From a virus: DNA of 45,860 bases. Positions 14,969 through 42,738 of this stretch are shown piece after piece; position 1 is the first letter of the stretch, and the number at the start of each line of letters is the position of its first letter. The DNA lies in the IMG/VR virus record IMGVR_UViG_3300025154_000161, positions 1 to 45,860 of that record. One strand, 5' to 3'. The notes beneath the pieces are model-generated. The model saw only the letters and a list, made by a program, of their open reading frames with translations, had not been told where the DNA came from and did not search any database. The translations under genes were made by a program, and so were the position numbers.

Positions 14969-15456
14969 AGTTGAACTTTCTCCCATCGTTTTCCTACGTT
15001 GATCGCAGTGATGGTGTTGCGGTTCACCCTGAACATTTTGGCAATGTCTTTCTGATACAACAATTTTGACTTGAGAAGTATCTTAATGAGCCAAACTTCT
15101 CCTTCTTTCAATTTTGTACCCCCCACAAATCGCCCCTTTGCAACCATGTCTCTCATGTTGTCGCTAGCAGTTCCAATAAACAGGTGATTTGGATTTACAC
15201 ACAATGGGTTATCGCACTTGTGGAGGACGAACTTCCCTTCATCGACCGGCCCATTATGAATTACCCACGAAGCTATGTGCGCCTGTATTCTTCTGTTATT
15301 GTCGTAGAATCTACCATACTTCTCCCCACCACACACGGGGGCAGTCCATTCCCAACACTGATTCGCGTCGGAAACCCTGACATTGCACCAGAATTTATCC
15401 TGAAGACTTACCTTGCAGAACTTACCGGAAGAATTCCTGTTGTGGGTTTGTCTCAT
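14965..15456 (-). CDS. Freestanding HNH homing endonuclease
   Basis: 163 residues. WEWTAPVCGGEKYGRF and VLHKCDNPLCVNPNHLFIG form the HNH/His-Me core (H-x-C-x-N-P-x-C-x-N-x-x-H), flanked by a C-terminal helix-turn-helix (YQKDIAKMFRVNRNTITAI). This is the usual architecture of freestanding phage HNH endonucleases (HNH_3 type). It starts by an ATGA overlap with the transglycosylase gene and stops by overlap with the tailspike gene, so it has been fitted into the late operon. It probably cuts an intron-less or intein-less neighbouring allele to spread itself. Confidence 0.85.
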   Translation of the reverse strand: MRQTHNRNSSGKFCKVSLQDKFWCNVRVSDANQCWEWTAPVCGGEKYGRFYDNNRRIQAHIASWVIHNGPVDEGKFVLHKCDNPLCVNPNHLFIGTASDNMRDMVAKGRFVGGTKLKEGEVWLIKILLKSKLLYQKDIAKMFRVNRNTITAINVGKRWEKVQL

Positions 15457-18400
15457 TCTTCTCTTTCCTCATCGTCAAGTGTTGTTCCTGCAACCCTTGT
15501 CATTATCCCGGCCATCTTGCGAGCAACGGTCATGTCTGGAGTTTTCATTCCTCGGATCAAACTACTCCTGAATGCTTCATTGTTGAAATAAAGATCGGCA
15601 ATCTTTTTTGAACTTAGCTGAGTTACTGTCATCCAGACTGGATGCCTCACCCATTTGTGGAGTTCATTTATTGTTGTTTGACCTGTTCCAGAAGGGTTCC
15701 CCGACATCTTCTCGGCTGTCGTTATGGTCTTGCTCACTTCATAGAGGTTGTCCAACCCTTCTCGTTCTGCCTTGGTTAGCATCACATCCAAATTGTCTGT
15801 CATTTTGTATTTGTCATAGGCCGTTGAAAACCTGGCATGATTTATTGACTGCTGTTCTCCTTGCGAGATCATCCCCTCGAACCATGCTTGCTTTATTTTC
15901 TGAAACGACCTTGGTCCTGCTACCTGTCGCAGCCTGGTTATATCTGACACATTTGGCTTTGCCTTGAAAAACTTGGCAGCAACATCTTCCGGGCTTGTCG
16001 AGTTCATCATTTGCCGTATCTGACTATCTTTCCAGACTCGTATCCCTGGAAGGGCCTTGTCACCCTCTCGATAGAATTTGTTGGCTATCTCAAGAGTTTC
16101 CTTTACGGCGGGGTCTTCCACCTTTGCACTGAAAGCCGCTATATCATCGCCTATGGCATTTGAAAGGGACCGGAGAATCCTCTTGTTGTTAAAATCACTA
16201 GTTTTCTCAATCATCTTGCCAAGCGAAGACTTGTCGGCTCTTAACTCAGACCAAGTGTAAGCCGGCTCGACGCTCTTCTGGATAATTCGATTTCCTTGAG
16301 CATCCAATATCGGACTGACTTCAATGCTCGCATTTTCTGCCTTGCCGGTGATTCTAAGTATCCTCTTTATCGTGGGAGATTCTAATTTCCCAAGTTCATC
16401 CATGTGTTGAGCCGCGGCGTCGGCAAGGTTTTTCGTGTCAATCTTCGTCTCGGGAGGCACGGGAACTCTGTCATATAGAATCGATGCTTTTTTGTTGAAC
16501 GCCCTATATCGGTTCCATGAAGTCTTCTGAGCCGACCGCCCCGCCGCCAGTGGATCTACTGTTCCCCCAAAGAATTCCTCTTGGACTTTTATGGCATAGT
16601 CTTGAACCTGCTTGGCTTGTTCTTGCCGAGCTTTTTGGACAATGTTCGTTGAACCCATGTTCTTTTCGAGTTGTGATTCCAAAAGCCCAACACTTTTCTT
16701 CTGCGTTGTTTGTGCTGGAGTGAATTTGACTCCTGTCTCACGGCTCAGCGCCTCTCTCCCCGCAACCTTAGCCGCTTGCCCTGATAGTTGACCAGTCACC
16801 GCAGGGGTTGACATCCCGCCCTTCCATGCGCTTATGGCTGGACCAACGACTTGTCCTCCCCCTTCTAGCGCCGCTCCGGTCAAGACCTGTTTCCCGGCCG
16901 AAATGAATCTTCCCGGAAGAGATTCCGTTGGCTTTGTACCTGCGTATTCTTCCAAAAGATCTGCGGCTTGCGCTCCCATGCCGTATCCCAATCCAGCCCC
17001 AGCCATAGTTCCGGCTACTGGAGCAACAGCACTTCCAGCAATTCCGCCAGCCACCATCCCTGAAGTTTCCAGGACTGGTCGCACATAAGGGGAAGCGGCC
17101 CCGGCTATCCTTTGTCCCCACGAACGATCATCCTTCATGGCGTCACGAGCCTCTATCCCTGCGGCCTTGAACAAATCCTCATCCGACATGGACGACAAAT
17201 CCACTCCTGCTATTTTGGCCAGTTCTTCGTCTGACATGCCGGATAGGTCTTGTGTGGGTCCATCTTGTCCGGCATTCAAACCACCGATGGATTGCTGTTG
17301 GGTGGACCGCTGTGCTGGTTGCCCCAAACCAGACATCGCACTTGACACCTTCGATGCAAATTCTTTTTGCTCCTGAGTTACATCCAATGCGCTTGGATCT
17401 CCCGAAATGATTCTCCCTACAATGGTTTCCTTCTGCGCTAGTTCGTCCCCACCGCCATACTTCTTGAAAGCCTCTTTCTGTTTGTCGGTAAGCTCGAAAT
17501 TCGGAACCATGTTGTTTTGTCGCATGGTGAGTCGGGCGAATTCATTCTTCGCAACGGCCTGCTTCTCTGGCTCTGACAACGTACTGTATGGGTTAAGAAC
17601 GATGGTTCCGCTATTGAAGTCCGCCATGCCTCCTACCTTGGGATTTTTTTTGAACCACCGATCTTCATCTTGAGATACTTCTCGTATCGGGTATTTTTGT
17701 TGGGGAGGCTGCTGTGCTGATTGAGTCGCACCAGCTTCAGCCAACATCTTTTCGCCCACATCCTTGGTGATTCCCTTGTCTTCCGGGTCATATCCGAACT
17801 TCCGCATGAAGTGCTCCATCCATGCGGTCGGATGGTCTTCGGACTTGAGCATTTCCCCCGTCTTGGGATCGGACGACGACCAATGATACATTCCGTCATG
17901 CTTGTTTCGCTCAGGGACTATCCCGGCAGCCTTGAATAAATCCTCATCCGACATGGACGACAAATCTACCCCTGCTATTTTGGCAAGCTCTTCGTCTGAC
18001 ATGCTGGATAGGTCTTGTGGTCCCATCTCAGCATGATGCAGTTCGGCATACCTGGTTGCCTCCTCTGGTGTTTTAAAAATTCCAAGGTGTTTTCCTGTTT
18101 TTCTGTACTGATCGAAGGCTTCTTCCGGCGACATCTCCCTACCATCGTCGGCAATGGTTGGGACCAAAACTTCACCCTGATCCGTTCCAAAGCTCATGGA
18201 CTTCACTGTACTAGTTGTTCCGTCTGCGTTTTTGACAATTGGTCTTGTGCTATAATCAATGTTTCCCGGAACTATCGGCTGTAAGTCTGACAAATCGCTA
18301 TTGCTCGTACCCGGAATCTCTGCCGCTTGAGCCTCAGACGGAGATACAAACTTGGAAACCTTCTCGGCTATCCTCGAAAGATAGTTCTTGGTTTCGTCCG

Positions 18401-19727
18401 GCATGAATCCTTGCTTGACCCTTTCGGGTCCAGCGTTGTATGCCCAAAGAGCATCATGCCAACCGCCAAACTTGTCCTTCTGTGCCTTGAGATACCTGAA
18501 TCCGCCGCTCAGATTGTCGATGGGATCTTTGGGGTTGACACCTAAATCCTTGGCCGTATTGCCAGTTATGGTAATGTATCCATCTCTCCACATAACCCAC
18601 GTTTTATTCTCAACGGACGGGCACCATACTGGTTCAGGTGGGACTAATACATATTTCGTCCTTGTAGTAGACGCACTAGTAACGTTGCGCGACTTAACAT
18701 GGCCTTGATATTTATTTTGCGTATTGTACGTTTCCCCATTGATACGCGTTGTTCCTGCCAATCTAACCAATTTAAGGTTTGACACTTTGCCAATTAAGAA
18801 TAAAAGAGTTTGAATATCTCTGGCCCTATCTAAATCAGATTGACAATAAGACTGAAATCCATTATTTTTTTGGCTAGCATCGGTATCAAGAAGTGATTTC
18901 CACAATATGTCTGCTTGCTTCCTGGTAATATTTGTTAATAGATTTGTTGATAATCGTTTTTTGCCTTCATGTAACAACCAAGTAGATATCAACCTTGCAG
19001 AGTCTCCAGTTATGCACCATCTATACTTACCTTCTGTTTCACTCTCATGGGCCATAACCCCACTTTTCTCTATGGCCGATCTGAACAGATCTACTAAGTC
19101 TTTTTGGTAAATGTCAATTTGGTTGCCTTTCTTTCCTATGCTCCCGTCAGCAAACACGAGGCCCAGAAGATATACTAAATCATCATCAACAACTTGTGTG
19201 TCACAAAAAACATATTCTCCACCACGGACTATATTCTGTCTACGTGGAAGGATAAGATCTGTTGTCTCTTTCATGACCAACTGTGGATTAATGCTTCTTC
19301 TGTTGTTTGGAAGAACCTCTATAACCCATTTATGATTTTGAGTTACAGTAAAGTCGAATCCTTGATTGAATATTCTGATCAATGGCCCTGGATTTTCATA
19401 AAAATGTAACTCCAGTAATGGTTGAAGCTCAATGCGTGATGATGTTATATTATAGGTGAATATCTGCTCTCCAACTGAAAGTTCGTCGTAACGTTTCCAT
19501 CCGTTTGCCGTGAGGGCCATGCAGTCCAAAGTAACACATGCCGGCATGAGTTGAGTGAGCCCCATTGCGCCCTTGGGCGACACGGCTTCCTGATTCCACT
19601 CCGACTCTTGGCCGATCAACGAATGCGCCAGCGGCTTGGGTATCCCATGCTTTTGGGCAAGAATGTCGGCCGAAGTTTTATGATCCAACTTGGCGGCTCT
19701 TAATAGGTCTTCATCCGACCAATCCAT
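15453..19727 (-). CDS. Transglycosylase ejection protein with intein
   Basis: About 1424 residues as a precursor, about 1097 after splicing. The N-terminus is MDWSDEDLLRAAKL. An SLT lytic transglycosylase follows: catalytic Glu in IGQESEWN, then GAMGLTQLMPA, interrupted by the intein at 18558-19538, resuming TAKDLGVNPKD and AYNAGPERV. The rest is a long helical, Ala/Gln-rich body with two LSxMSDEELAKIAG repeats and a Gly/Ala membrane-active segment (GAGLGYGMGAQAAD). This is the design of podovirus internal virion proteins that open peptidoglycan and form a DNA channel. The ATG at 19727 has GGAG 9 nt upstream; a GTG at 19742 is possible. Confidence 0.8.
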   Translation of the reverse strand: MDWSDEDLLRAAKLDHKTSADILAQKHGIPKPLAHSLIGQESEWNQEAVSPKGAMGLTQLMPACVTLDCMALTANGWKRYDELSVGEQIFTYNITSSRIELQPLLELHFYENPGPLIRIFNQGFDFTVTQNHKWVIEVLPNNRRSINPQLVMKETTDLILPRRQNIVRGGEYVFCDTQVVDDDLVYLLGLVFADGSIGKKGNQIDIYQKDLVDLFRSAIEKSGVMAHESETEGKYRWCITGDSARLISTWLLHEGKKRLSTNLLTNITRKQADILWKSLLDTDASQKNNGFQSYCQSDLDRARDIQTLLFLIGKVSNLKLVRLAGTTRINGETYNTQNKYQGHVKSRNVTSASTTRTKYVLVPPEPVWCPSVENKTWVMWRDGYITITGNTAKDLGVNPKDPIDNLSGGFRYLKAQKDKFGGWHDALWAYNAGPERVKQGFMPDETKNYLSRIAEKVSKFVSPSEAQAAEIPGTSNSDLSDLQPIVPGNIDYSTRPIVKNADGTTSTVKSMSFGTDQGEVLVPTIADDGREMSPEEAFDQYRKTGKHLGIFKTPEEATRYAELHHAEMGPQDLSSMSDEELAKIAGVDLSSMSDEDLFKAAGIVPERNKHDGMYHWSSSDPKTGEMLKSEDHPTAWMEHFMRKFGYDPEDKGITKDVGEKMLAEAGATQSAQQPPQQKYPIREVSQDEDRWFKKNPKVGGMADFNSGTIVLNPYSTLSEPEKQAVAKNEFARLTMRQNNMVPNFELTDKQKEAFKKYGGGDELAQKETIVGRIISGDPSALDVTQEQKEFASKVSSAMSGLGQPAQRSTQQQSIGGLNAGQDGPTQDLSGMSDEELAKIAGVDLSSMSDEDLFKAAGIEARDAMKDDRSWGQRIAGAASPYVRPVLETSGMVAGGIAGSAVAPVAGTMAGAGLGYGMGAQAADLLEEYAGTKPTESLPGRFISAGKQVLTGAALEGGGQVVGPAISAWKGGMSTPAVTGQLSGQAAKVAGREALSRETGVKFTPAQTTQKKSVGLLESQLEKNMGSTNIVQKARQEQAKQVQDYAIKVQEEFFGGTVDPLAAGRSAQKTSWNRYRAFNKKASILYDRVPVPPETKIDTKNLADAAAQHMDELGKLESPTIKRILRITGKAENASIEVSPILDAQGNRIIQKSVEPAYTWSELRADKSSLGKMIEKTSDFNNKRILRSLSNAIGDDIAAFSAKVEDPAVKETLEIANKFYREGDKALPGIRVWKDSQIRQMMNSTSPEDVAAKFFKAKPNVSDITRLRQVAGPRSFQKIKQAWFEGMISQGEQQSINHARFSTAYDKYKMTDNLDVMLTKAEREGLDNLYEVSKTITTAEKMSGNPSGTGQTTINELHKWVRHPVWMTVTQLSSKKIADLYFNNEAFRSSLIRGMKTPDMTVARKMAGIMTRVAGTTLDDEEREE
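17161..18017. repeat. 92-bp direct repeat pair inside the ejection gene
   Basis: Copies at 17161-17252 and 17926-18017 differ at only a handful of bases and both encode LSxMSDEELAKIAGVDLSSM-type text. They are about 765 bp apart and in the same frame, so recombination between them would delete a segment without shifting the frame. Confidence 0.8.
18558..19538 (-). mobile_element. LAGLIDADG intein in the transglycosylase domain
   Basis: 327 residues. It starts with Cys (CVTLDCMALTANGWKRYDEL, block A), has block B (FDFTVTQNHKWVI, with the His), two LAGLIDADG motifs (LVYLLGLVFADGSIG and ILWKSLLDTDAS) and ends YITITGN, followed by extein Thr. The penultimate His is replaced by Gly, as in some active inteins. 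Removing it rejoins LMPA with TAKDLG, the normal transglycosylase motif. The insertion is thus in the most conserved part of the active-site domain, where loss would be hard to repair without precise excision. Confidence 0.9.
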
Positions 19728-19747
19728 TGATTTGTTCTCCACTTAAC

Positions 19748-39379: not shown

Positions 39380-42085
39380 TCATCGCTTATCACTTCCGAC
39401 CGATTTATAATACTGCCGTCCCTCGTGCCTCTCAACCGGGGCATTCGTCTTCCCAGCCTTGAAGTACGGGTTCTTGAGCAACGCTTCCCACACCATATTG
39501 AAATGGCTGTATTTTTGTTGGGGATTATCCTTCGCGTCCTTCAAGGTGGAGTTTCTTGAATCGGCCCACACGTCCCAAGACCACTTCTTCATGTGCTCCA
39601 CGGCGTTCTTGCAGGTCGAAAACAGCCACAAAGTGGGGAGTCTTTTGGTGCTCCCGTCCCTGGTAACGAGATTATTGAAGGGACGCCCGACCAATCGGCT
39701 GTTCTGGAGCCTCATTTTGATCTCATTCCGGCCCACAAGCCCCTTTGTGTCCCATGGGGTCCAGTATCCCCCGGTCCCATTCCCAGACTTCTTTAGCTCC
39801 AGCGATATCCGATTAATATCGTCCAGTAGGGTGATGGTATCCTTCTGAATCGTCCTTGCCTCCGGGTCCAGGAGGTTGATTTTGAATCTGTGGTCCATGC
39901 ACCTTGAGGAAAATTCGTCCATGATGTCGAGCGTTGTGAATTTGTCCGGACTCATCCACGCTTCGGTCCATATGAACATCTCATTGGTCGGGCTCATGGA
40001 TGCCGCGCCGCATGCCCAATTCACATGGGGATGGATGTCTATCCCGCGCCCGTGGGTCCAAAACTGAGGGATTCCATGAGGGAAATACTCGTTCTCGTCA
40101 ATCTCGTGGATGCGCGAATCATACATCTTGAAGATTCGGCCGCTTGCCTGCCGGAAGATTCCATATCGCCTTGTGGCCTCCGTGTCAGGATCATCGTAGG
40201 TCAGTTTGCTCTTGATGGCTTCCATGTCGAGAGTTGGGTTGTCGTCGGTAGCGGCTTGCAGGACGGCTATCGTGGTCGGTTCTTTGGTCTTTTGGACCTG
40301 ATCCGTCTTGGTATCCTCACCTTGGGTCTTGTAGAAATCGCAGATTGCCGGCGTTCTGATGTAGATAGCCGCCTGCTCGAAAAGTTCTGAGAAGGTCCAG
40401 GTTACTTTTTGGGCAGGAGTTAGGAATATTTGCATCTCACCGTTTTCTGCAATCAGCCGTGGAAGCTGTTCTTCCCAAAATGCTTCACCGGGCTCTTCAT
40501 CGCAACTCACGGCGAGCCGCTGAGATCCAGCACCAGACTGGACGTCTTGGCTATACGACACAAATTCAACCACTATGTCGGGTCCATCGTAAGCTACCGC
40601 TTTATCACCCAATCCAAAAACTTCACCCTTGTTAGGGTTCGTTATGATGATTGCCTTTGTTCTGGCCGTAATGTCCCTCTTTAACAGAAATGGAGGCAAC
40701 CATTTTTTTAGCTCGGGATAGGTCCGATTTCTGATTTCTGCACTCTCTGCACCCGACCCCTCTTTATCCTCTGGTAGATTTTCAGACGCCATCCTGAACG
40801 TTGTGGTCCCGCGCTTGTGAATGTAGATCGGCTCTCCGCACTCCGGGCACATCATATCTTTCGGGAAGGCTATCTTTTTCGGCATAACATTTTGGTTTTT
40901 TGTCCAAAAACAATCTCCTGGTCTCACGTTGAAGTGGTGAAATCCAGGCCACGGAGCCGGTCTTGTAAACTCATGACCGTTCTTGCACTCGAAAAACAGA
41001 ACATTCTTCCTCGGGCACGGATGACTTCCAAGGAATTTCAAGACATTGCTGTATGCCATATAGCAGGACTTGCCGCTGTTGTGATGAATTACGCCGTTGT
41101 GGATGTAGTTGTGAAGCCCCGGAACCTCAAAATCCCATTTGACTCCTTCGCCTACTTTGACTATTGTGGAAACCAAGGCGAACGAGGAAGGAGTTGATAA
41201 TGCGAGTGAGTAAGGGTGGCTTGATCGGTCGCCCCCCCAAAGATTGGCCGATTGAGGAAATACGACGCCACGTGGAAGACCTTGGCTGGACCCACAGGGC
41301 GACAGGCAAGAAGCTTGGAGTGAACGAGAAGTATGTCTCGACCCTCTGCAAGAGGCACGGGATACAGTCTCAGCGCAGAGGTCCGAGAAGTGGACCTGGG
41401 CACCCCGATTGGGAAGGAGGTCTTTCGATAAGAAAGGGGTACGCCTATGTGTGGTTCCCGGAGCACCCGTTCTCAACCAAGGGAGGGTATGTTCTTCGGT
41501 CTCATTTGGTGATGGAAGACAAGTTGGAGAGATATCTTCAGCCTGGTGAAGTGGTCCACCACATGAACAACGACACTCTAGATGATGACCCTGACAACCT
41601 CTTTCTGTTCCGGTCGAATGGACTTCATTTGAAGTATACACGGACTGGGAAAATTCCGAATTGGACTGAGGACGGCATAGCGCGTATCCGGGCCGCAACT
41701 CAGAGACGCGAAGCCAACCGGAAGGCGTTAAAACAATGTGACCAGGAGCAGCAAGGAACGAACTCCCGTCCCGAAGACTAACCTTGTAGATATCATCCAT
41801 TCCCTTTGAGAATGGCTCGTTCGCCTTGGCAACAACAACTTTCTCTCCATCCCACGCCTCAACGTGGAACGATCCGGTTATTGTCTGGATCTCTTTAGAT
41901 TCACCAGTAACCGGGTCAAAAATCTTACTCCCCTCGGCCAAGCATTGGTTTCCACAAAAAAGGCATACCCTGTCGTATTTGTATGGCAAAAGTAACGCCT
42001 GCCTCATGAGCCAAGTCATCTTGTAGCTCAAGAAAACCGAGAAGTCGTTAAGCTGTTTTACGGCTAGATCGTTGTCACTACTCAC
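39380..42085 (-). CDS. terL: Terminase large subunit, interrupted by an intein
   Basis: 901-residue precursor, 612 after removal of the 289-residue intein (41078-41944). The spliced protein has the ATPase P-loop GNQ-SGKS (split by the intein), Walker B and catalytic acid DEE (near 529-531 of the precursor), and a C-terminal nuclease with acidic motifs GIDIHP (D683) and LLDPEA (D740). A CPEC knuckle lies near 413-416. It cuts and pumps DNA into the procapsid through the portal. The GTG start overlaps the upstream stop. No clear small subunit was identified next to it. Confidence 0.9.
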   Translation of the reverse strand: MSSDNDLAVKQLNDFSVFLSYKMTWLMRQALLLPYKYDRVCLFCGNQCLAEGSKIFDPVTGESKEIQTITGSFHVEAWDGEKVVVAKANEPFSKGMDDIYKVSLRDGSSFLAAPGHIVLTPSGWLRVSELRPGYALCRPQSNSEFSQSVYTSNEVHSTGTERGCQGHHLECRCSCGGPLHQAEDISPTCLPSPNETEEHTLPWLRTGAPGTTHRRTPFLSKDLLPNRGAQVHFSDLCAETVSRASCRGSRHTSRSLQASCLSPCGSSQGLPRGVVFPQSANLWGGDRSSHPYSLALSTPSSFALVSTIVKVGEGVKWDFEVPGLHNYIHNGVIHHNSGKSCYMAYSNVLKFLGSHPCPRKNVLFFECKNGHEFTRPAPWPGFHHFNVRPGDCFWTKNQNVMPKKIAFPKDMMCPECGEPIYIHKRGTTTFRMASENLPEDKEGSGAESAEIRNRTYPELKKWLPPFLLKRDITARTKAIIITNPNKGEVFGLGDKAVAYDGPDIVVEFVSYSQDVQSGAGSQRLAVSCDEEPGEAFWEEQLPRLIAENGEMQIFLTPAQKVTWTFSELFEQAAIYIRTPAICDFYKTQGEDTKTDQVQKTKEPTTIAVLQAATDDNPTLDMEAIKSKLTYDDPDTEATRRYGIFRQASGRIFKMYDSRIHEIDENEYFPHGIPQFWTHGRGIDIHPHVNWACGAASMSPTNEMFIWTEAWMSPDKFTTLDIMDEFSSRCMDHRFKINLLDPEARTIQKDTITLLDDINRISLELKKSGNGTGGYWTPWDTKGLVGRNEIKMRLQNSRLVGRPFNNLVTRDGSTKRLPTLWLFSTCKNAVEHMKKWSWDVWADSRNSTLKDAKDNPQQKYSHFNMVWEALLKNPYFKAGKTNAPVERHEGRQYYKSVGSDKR
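41139..41167 (+). promoter_or_regulatory. Sigma70-like promoter for the antisense HNH gene
   Basis: TTGACT (41139-41144, 5 of 6), 17-bp spacer, TATTGT (41162-41167, 4 of 6), 32 nt before the HNH ATG, within codons for the C-terminal splicing domain of the intein. The spacing is ideal, but the sequence also has to encode intein residues. Confidence 0.45.
41200..41781 (+). CDS. HNH homing endonuclease nested antisense in the intein
   Basis: 193 residues from the ATG at 41200 (AGGAG 6 nt upstream). The N-terminal part (GRPPKDWPIEEIRRHVEDLG, KLGVNEKYVSTLCKRHG) is a helix-turn-helix. Residues 100-145 form the HNH core: RSHLVMEDKLERYL, EVVHHMNNDTLDDDPDNLFL, SNGLHL. The basic C-terminal tail (about residues 155-193) is antisense to intein block B. 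Its third codon base faces the second base of intein codons. It probably cuts intein-less terminase genes so that the intein is copied in. Confidence 0.85.
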   Translation: MRVSKGGLIGRPPKDWPIEEIRRHVEDLGWTHRATGKKLGVNEKYVSTLCKRHGIQSQRRGPRSGPGHPDWEGGLSIRKGYAYVWFPEHPFSTKGGYVLRSHLVMEDKLERYLQPGEVVHHMNNDTLDDDPDNLFLFRSNGLHLKYTRTGKIPNWTEDGIARIRAATQRREANRKALKQCDQEQQGTNSRPED

Positions 42086-42321
42086 TACTTCTTCTTCCCC
42101 TTGGGTCTTCTTGCCACGGCTTGAAGATTCTTCGCTTCTTGGATAACTTTGGATGCCATTTGCTTTGCTTGGGTTTCAGCGGCCCTCATCCTTTTCGCAT
42201 CACTTGCGATTTCTTGAGCCCTGGCCAATGTCCTGGCATCATCCTCGGCACGCCATTTCTTCTCTTCCTTGTTCATTTTCATTGAATTGCCTGCCCGTAT
42301 TGGTGGTGAACATCCATTCAT
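42085..42321 (-). CDS. Small helical basic protein upstream of terL
   Basis: Seventy-eight residues ending KGKKK. The helical body (KEEKKWRAEDDARTLARAQE, KQMASKVIQEAKNLQAVAR) resembles small phage proteins with an AEDDARTLA motif. The ATG at 42321 makes an ATGA overlap; the ATG at 42282 is an alternative. It directly precedes terL, but I see no terminase small subunit fold. Confidence 0.6.
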   Translation of the reverse strand: MNGCSPPIRAGNSMKMNKEEKKWRAEDDARTLARAQEIASDAKRMRAAETQAKQMASKVIQEAKNLQAVARRPKGKKK

Positions 42322-42455
42322 CCCTTCTTCCCCTTGGTCCAGCCGCCGCCCTTCTTGCGTTTCACGCCGGTCGATTCAGAACACACAGCCCACGCTTTCA
42401 CCTTGGGACTTTTCTTCTTCACTTTCTTGACGCATCTCTCGATCTTGGCGGGCAT
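42318..42455 (-). CDS. Very small basic protein (MPAKxERCVKxVK type)
   Basis: Forty-five residues, MPAKIERCVKKVKKKSPKVK and then AWAVCSESTGVKRKKGG. The pattern MPAK.ERCV..VK...NPWAVC recurs in many small phage proteins, with no known function to me. The GGGAG SD is at good distance. Confidence 0.65.
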   Translation of the reverse strand: MPAKIERCVKKVKKKSPKVKAWAVCSESTGVKRKKGGGWTKGKKG

Positions 42456-42738
42456 TTCCCTTCTCCCAAAAGTGATCCTTGGATTCGTTAGGAATGACCG
42501 TTGCCAGTTCTCCCGACAAAAACCATTTATGTGAATTACCCAGCCATTCGTCCGCCCAAAACTCAACATCGACTTCATTCCCGCTACGATCACGCCATAC
42601 AGGGCTGGACAATGTGACATTATGGAAATGTGCCACTTCGCTAACGCTCCCCCCTCGCTTCAATATCACGGGGTAACACCCTTTATGATTCGGCATTTTA
42701 TCGGGATACTTAATCCATGGCTTTTCTTTGGCCGGCAT
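42376..42738 (-). CDS. Hypothetical protein
   Basis: 120 residues (MPAKEKPWIKYPDKMPNHKG, then VEFWADEWLGNSHKWFLSGE). The N-terminal two thirds look beta-rich and well formed. The acidic C-terminus (REMRQESEEEKSQGES) overlaps the next gene's start by 80 bp and may be non-conserved. Confidence 0.5.
   Translation of the reverse strand: MPAKEKPWIKYPDKMPNHKGCYPVILKRGGSVSEVAHFHNVTLSSPVWRDRSGNEVDVEFWADEWLGNSHKWFLSGELATVIPNESKDHFWEKGNARQDREMRQESEEEKSQGESVGCVF

Follow-up and report, generated by a model that had tools for sequence, protein, structure and literature searches.

Background

The stretch of DNA analysed here, called the window, is the virus record IMGVR_UViG_3300025154_000161 of IMG/VR at its full length of 45,860 nucleotides. 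We describe an intein in the P-loop of its terminase gene TerL, within which an HNH endonuclease gene is located on the opposite strand. The closest described systems are the mycobacteriophage TerL P-loop inteins TerL1-a and TerL1-b, which have been shown both to splice and to cleave TerL DNA that lacks the intein (PMC5050341). As in these inteins, the window has a Hint domain in the TerL P-loop and a homing-type nuclease coded between blocks B and F. In TerL1-a and TerL1-b, however, the nuclease is an in-frame domain of the intein, whereas here it is a separate opposite-strand protein and the intein itself has a linker predicted to be unstructured.

Fractured genes, reportedly described by Dassa et al. 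in 2009, are said to carry split inteins with a free-standing endonuclease gene between the two halves. They likewise combine a phage intein with an independently translated endonuclease gene, but the host gene and the intein are divided over two open reading frames (ORFs) and splice in trans. Here, one unbroken ORF is found, and splicing in cis is therefore expected.

Two further systems share part of the layout. The ShiLan domain is a hidden out-of-frame HNH in phage methylases, without an intein (PMC11855218). There, too, the HNH gene lies within an insertion that keeps the frame of its host gene and has no stops, its presence is patchy, and the HNH family is related to the present one (tblastn matches). 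However, the ShiLan HNH is read in an alternate frame in the direction of the host gene and has no splicing domain, whereas in our loci the HNH is always antisense and a Hint domain is present. Antisense homing endonuclease genes such as that of I-DsqI are known from nuclear group I introns in ribosomal DNA (rDNA), for which cleavage of the intron-lacking allele has been shown (PMC9548176). Such introns are also self-splicing elements with a homing nuclease on the opposite strand, but since they are RNA introns in rDNA their sense strand need not stay open, whereas here the sense strand itself would be translated through the nuclease gene.

Compared with these systems, the splicing element is joined to its homing nuclease in a way that is neither fused nor split, using one DNA segment and its opposite strands. 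No earlier description of an antisense nuclease gene in an intein was found in searches of openly licensed papers, and one may exist elsewhere. The original prediction, made from the letters of the window, had proposed the nested layout as undescribed. With respect to the openly licensed papers searched this holds, but what had been taken for a single case is a widespread class.

We conclude that the locus is very probably a composite mobile element, where a Hint intein in the TerL P-loop and an antisense-nested HNH homing endonuclease gene move together. It is also likely, with slightly less confidence, that it belongs to a widespread, old and undescribed class of inteins of tailed phages and prophages. 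In this class the homing endonuclease would always be antisense, in one fixed phase and inside the splicing ORF, and selection would keep both overlapping genes. The open intein frame would restrict the amino acid pairs of the HNH protein, and annotation would call the terminases truncated or pseudogenes.

The intein in the window

The TerL insert has the junctions CGNQ/CLAEG...VIHHN/SGKS (a slash marks each junction) and interrupts the ATP-binding P-loop. The two ends of the insert are recognised by the NCBIfam models for intein N- and C-termini and by Pfam Intein_splicing. Blocks A, B, F and G are all present, together with C1, the block-B His, the penultimate His, the terminal Asn and Ser+1. 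An endonuclease domain was sought in the intein reading frame using domain models, without a match. The window intein thereby differs from large inteins with an in-frame homing endonuclease, as its nuclease is on the other strand. The original prediction of intact splicing blocks at both ends and no nuclease domain in the intein's own frame is borne out, as the models match at the two ends only. An in-frame endonuclease is ruled out, with none in the intein frame.

The AlphaFold model of the intein has a predicted local distance difference test (pLDDT) score of about 97-98 in the Hint halves and about 44 in most of the antisense-coded middle. With this model as query, Foldseek places inteins first among its PDB matches, namely those of Mtu RecA and Ssp DnaB, and phmmer concurs. 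The Hint fold characteristic of inteins is thus found in the model. C1, H69, H288 and N289 are invariant across 46 inteins.

The insertion is precise, since an intein-less relative (L003), with a TerL 75% identical to that of the window, reads FCGNQAGKSC at the empty site (FCGNQ/AGKS). The C-exteins of relatives match Terminase_6N/Terminase_3 and TerL PHROGs. The residue following the insertion point (41077/41078) is Ala in the empty L003 (CGNQ/AGKS) and Ser in the occupied window. The element may have brought the Ser required for splicing into the window TerL by co-conversion.

The original prediction had also named an RNA intron covering the same interval as something to look for. An Rfam search over 40500-42500 gave no family match, and there is therefore no sign of an RNA intron in the window. 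For an RNA intron or an assembly-broken gene, rather than an intein, nothing was found in favour. The intein blocks are intact and the ORF is continuous. Furthermore, the same layout is shared by 166 records and occurs in a complete Escherichia coli chromosome as well, so that we assign practically no probability to this explanation.

Recurrence of the antisense arrangement

Relatives were collected in two scans of the HNH family. Each scan comprises the best 80 matches, meaning that the counts describe the near family and not every HNH relative. The loci were classified with iterated Hint profiles.

HNH relatives in viral contigs are found in the same arrangement, in terminases that are 22-35% identical to the window TerL. 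In the first scan, made with an HNH alignment, 80 viral loci were found. One more member of the near family, in a Phycisphaeraceae metagenome-assembled genome (L089), came from the genome collection. This first clade has 84 records, the window included, with both intein halves antisense to the HNH, in one ORF and one phase. The second scan, using a divergent query of the HNH type in Pseudoalteromonas phage PHS3, gave 80 further viral loci with identical layout and phase. Its clade, having a total of 82 records, includes the cultured phages Pectobacterium phage Sabo and Pseudoalteromonas phage PHS3.

All 166 classifiable records have the HNH gene antisense within one unbroken intein ORF and in the same codon phase. 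These records correspond to 163 distinct contigs (three were fetched twice) and to 85 clusters at 75% HNH identity. Among the classified loci none has its intein halves in different ORFs, and the host gene divided over two ORFs, by which split inteins and fractured genes are recognised, was found in none of the 166 records. A split intein or fractured gene is ruled out, as the ORF is continuous everywhere. More distant HNH relatives in bacterial genomes have no adjoining intein, and in plasmids no member covering most of the HNH was found. The constant phase suggests a single origin, i.e. that the antisense arrangement arose once.

The layout is also found as a prophage in the complete chromosome of E. 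coli strain MEI003 (NZ_CP071263.1). Here, RefSeq flags the terminase as incomplete (N-terminus missing) and annotates the nested HNH on the opposite strand, while the unbroken precursor of 802 amino acids is unrecognised. The terminase of Pseudoalteromonas phage PHS3 is annotated too short. In both cases the reason is that the intein was not seen. Databases miss the element and sometimes call the packaging gene broken.

Two loci (L182 and L183) have inteins of 203 amino acids, where the HNH match is limited to its C-terminal part and the intein frame is open. These are possibly decay products of an in-frame deletion.

Selection on both strands

In the shared phase, a stop in the intein frame corresponds to an HNH codon ending in TT, CT or TC when the next codon has A as its first letter. 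The number of stops expected by chance was estimated by shuffling synonymous HNH codons. The window has 0 intein-frame stops vs 6.1 expected, and the frame was open in 0 of 1000 shuffles. When the synonymous codons of each HNH were permuted, 260.5 stops were expected in the 49 first-clade clusters and 455.7 in all 85 clusters (14,633 codons), and 0 were found in both sets. For HNH relatives located outside inteins, the same phase has 165 stops among 4,334 codons (3.8 per 100). A Phe codon followed by an A-initial codon is a stop which synonymous choice cannot rescue. This combination is absent from the intein set (0/202, with 51.9 expected), whereas it is found in 16/76 in the non-intein set. 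The claim that the intein frame crosses the HNH gene without a stop therefore holds for the window, where the TerL ORF is unbroken, and for every relative.

Variable sites were counted by codon position in 24 aligned inteins. One unrelated sequence of equal length (L025) was left out of the 885-nucleotide group; with it included there is no signal. In the overlap, the variable sites fall 49/113/38 on the three intein codon positions (P 2e-11), with the peak at position 2, which is the HNH wobble position. In the N-terminal Hint half they fall 35/27/75 (P 5e-7), with the peak at position 3, the intein wobble position. Additionally, the overlap in five pairs is 47-93% identical when read as HNH vs 30-76% when read as intein. 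As the overlap changes at the HNH wobble and is more alike as HNH, the HNH strand is selected for protein. Conservation of the HNH ORF in related phages, on which the original prediction also depended, is thereby confirmed, with the substitutions concentrated at HNH wobble positions. The intein strand is, judged from these patterns, selected for the two Hint ends and otherwise only for the absence of stops.

Long antisense ORFs are generally known to arise by chance in GC-rich genes, and the open frame might on this account be a compositional mirror of a single real gene. This is contradicted by 0 stops where 456 were expected, by the rate of 3.8 stops per 100 codons among relatives outside inteins, and by independent homology on each strand with opposite wobble patterns. 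We consider the probability of such a mirror ORF negligible. A chance antisense ORF is ruled out by the stop counts, the codon-position pattern and the non-intein controls. The loci offer a large natural collection of genes that overlap in antisense, having a clear selection signal, for studies of two-strand coding.

Insertion sites and mobility

The insertion site was scored for 83 cluster representatives. By this scoring it lies just before the P-loop GK in 63 and between K and T in 17, and of the 3 other sites at least one (GNQ/TGKN in L008) is also P-loop-like. One antisense-HNH intein has a primase-helicase as its host (L065; DnaG zinc finger, Toprim and MCM P-loop) and is inserted in the P-loop, so that the element is not restricted to TerL.

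A survey of relatives of two TerL groups gave 138 empty loci, 19 composite loci and 2 HNH-less mini-inteins, and no sense-strand nuclease of this HNH family was found in it. The mini-inteins (L389 and L411, 132 and 136 amino acids) are located at a TerL site which in near-identical terminases is empty or carries the composite. Mini-inteins may arise through loss of the nested gene. Precise in-frame insertion is seen against the intein-less homologues L003, E. coli strain 167 and the 138 empty TerL loci.

A quick DNA tree of one TerL group requires at least 8 changes between presence and absence, 6 of these being forced by strongly supported branches. Two loci of composites (L337 and L375) are identical in the last 70 N-extein residues and 94.8% identical in C-extein DNA, while the N-terminal Hint halves are 53% and the HNH proteins 58% identical. 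With near-identical exteins and divergent inteins, one composite has replaced another. Among prophages of the E. coli type, the site is occupied in L233 and in strain MEI003, whereas strain 167 has the empty allele. The flanks of L233 are 84-87% identical to those of strain 167, with the junction KFKAYVAGFG/SGKTWVGCGG. The HNH gene thus shows patchy presence, empty alleles and horizontal exchange, as is characteristic of homing genes. The occurrence of an empty site, two different composites and a mini-intein among near-identical TerL genes is, as far as such a distribution can be read, the pattern of a homing element. Cultured phages and natural pairs of occupied and empty alleles make the homing hypothesis directly testable.

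Another explanation is that the HNH gene is a free-standing parasite, using a mini-intein as a safe harbour, which homes elsewhere and does not move the intein. Related HNH genes do exist outside inteins, HNH-less mini-inteins are found at the same TerL site, and in the second clade the HNH-Hint distances track no better than the Hint-extein distances, with all correlations among HNH, Hint and extein near 0.57. However, 166/166 records share phase and position, and there is therefore no sign of repeated independent invasion by the HNH. The first clade has a distance correlation of 0.66 for HNH-Hint compared with 0.27 for Hint-extein, and different HNH-Hint pairs swap as units at one site. We consider this explanation unlikely.

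Even less likely, in our view, is that the HNH is mainly an exclusion nuclease of the phage, cutting TerL of co-infecting relatives so as to win in mixed infection, with movement of the intein as a by-product. In its favour, the cut would fall at the most conserved site of an essential gene, many relatives are empty, and the same cleavage mechanism would be used. However, repeated replacement of the whole element is explained no better by exclusion than by homing, and no sequence result separates the two.

The nested HNH gene and its probable expression

The original prediction of a separate opposite-strand HNH gene with its own Shine-Dalgarno sequence is in agreement with our results. The window ORF matches HNH_3 (5.5e-5) and PHROG HNH families (down to 3.8e-20), AAGGAG is found 6 nucleotides from the ATG, and the layout returns in every classified record. 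A Shine-Dalgarno sequence precedes the first HNH ATG in 48/77 family loci, compared with 9% of nearby control ATGs (P 3e-30).

The predicted sigma70-like promoter is upheld for the family but not for the window taken alone. Promoter-like scores upstream of the HNH gene are above those of shuffles across 85 relatives (P 6e-9), whereas the window site is not significant by itself (1 found vs 1.1 expected). Given this family-wide enrichment of both signals, the HNH gene is likely to be expressed independently. The nested layout offers an explanation for a nuclease that is expressed independently and yet travels with its intein.

The AlphaFold model of the HNH protein has a mean pLDDT of 88.5, with a helix-turn-helix (HTH), an HNH core and a long C-terminal helix (residues 157-187). 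The tail of the HNH overlaps intein block B in the window. The catalytic His, Asn and His (H121, N133 and H143) are invariant in 42 sequences, the window included. Coordinates of the intein, the exteins and the nested gene are shown in Table 1.

Table 1. Coordinates of the TerL precursor, its intein and the nested HNH gene in the window.
Feature	Position	Strand	Description
TerL precursor gene	42085..39380	-	901 codons, GTG start; ORF unbroken
N-extein, 47 amino acids	41945..42085	-	Ends ...CLFCGNQ, the first half of the P-loop
Intein, 289 amino acids	41078..41944	-	First residue C1 (codon at 41944), last residues H288-N289; next comes Ser+1 of SGKS
Hint N-terminal half	41660..41944	-	Blocks A and B, residues 1-95; catalytic C1 and H69
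Codon of block-B His69	41738..41740	-	Opposite HNH codons 180-181; functional protein parts coded on both strands
Intein linker	41200..41659	-	Antisense translation of the HNH gene; predicted unstructured, stop-free
Hint C-terminal part	41078..41185	-	Blocks F and G, ends IHHN/S
C-extein	39380..41077	-	Begins SGKS, the second half of the P-loop
HNH endonuclease gene, 193 amino acids	41200..41781	+	N-terminal HTH, HNH core (H121, N133, H143), C-terminal helix
Shine-Dalgarno AAGGAG of the HNH gene	41188..41193	+	6 nucleotides upstream of the ATG, within the sequence coding for the intein
Promoter-like TTGACT-17-TATTGT upstream of the HNH gene	41139..41167	+	Sigma70-like; weak alone

Proposed mechanism

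The HNH gene occupies the place where other inteins hold an in-frame endonuclease domain. We propose that the precursor would be translated through the antisense linker and splice in cis, giving active TerL. The HNH protein, made from a transcript of the opposite strand, would cut the P-loop DNA of an intein-less TerL, and repair from the occupied copy would then move the intein and the HNH gene together. Where the HNH gene is lost, a mini-intein would be left. Mobilisation of the intein by the HNH protein, as proposed here, is well supported by distribution.

Several observations weigh against this reading. The specificity of the HNH protein for the TerL P-loop is deduced from the insertion sites only. 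There is also a correlation between Hint and extein distances, which is stronger in the second clade, and some of the inheritance is therefore vertical. Using the HNH model, Foldseek gave no match below E 0.001 and no confident match to the whole protein, and the nearest solved homing nuclease, I-HmuI, is a weak match. Furthermore, of 33 near-invariant columns the window HNH differs from the family at 6, where the median is 1. This is the highest number among the 42 sequences, although H121, N133 and H143 are kept. The activity of the window copy is for this reason uncertain, and it may be decaying or inactive.

Other inserts

Apparent inserts of another kind were also noticed. A 1429-amino-acid ORF in the window (19742..15453, minus strand) has a transglycosylase SLT domain split into two stretches. 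The insert, GLTQLMPA/CVTLD...ITGN/TAKDLG, looks like a second, conventional intein and has a weak in-frame match to LAGLIDADG_3. The C-exteins of three relatives (L041, L050 and L014) also carry an apparent second insert, with LAGLIDADG_3 matches in L041 and L050 and a second Hint domain in L014.
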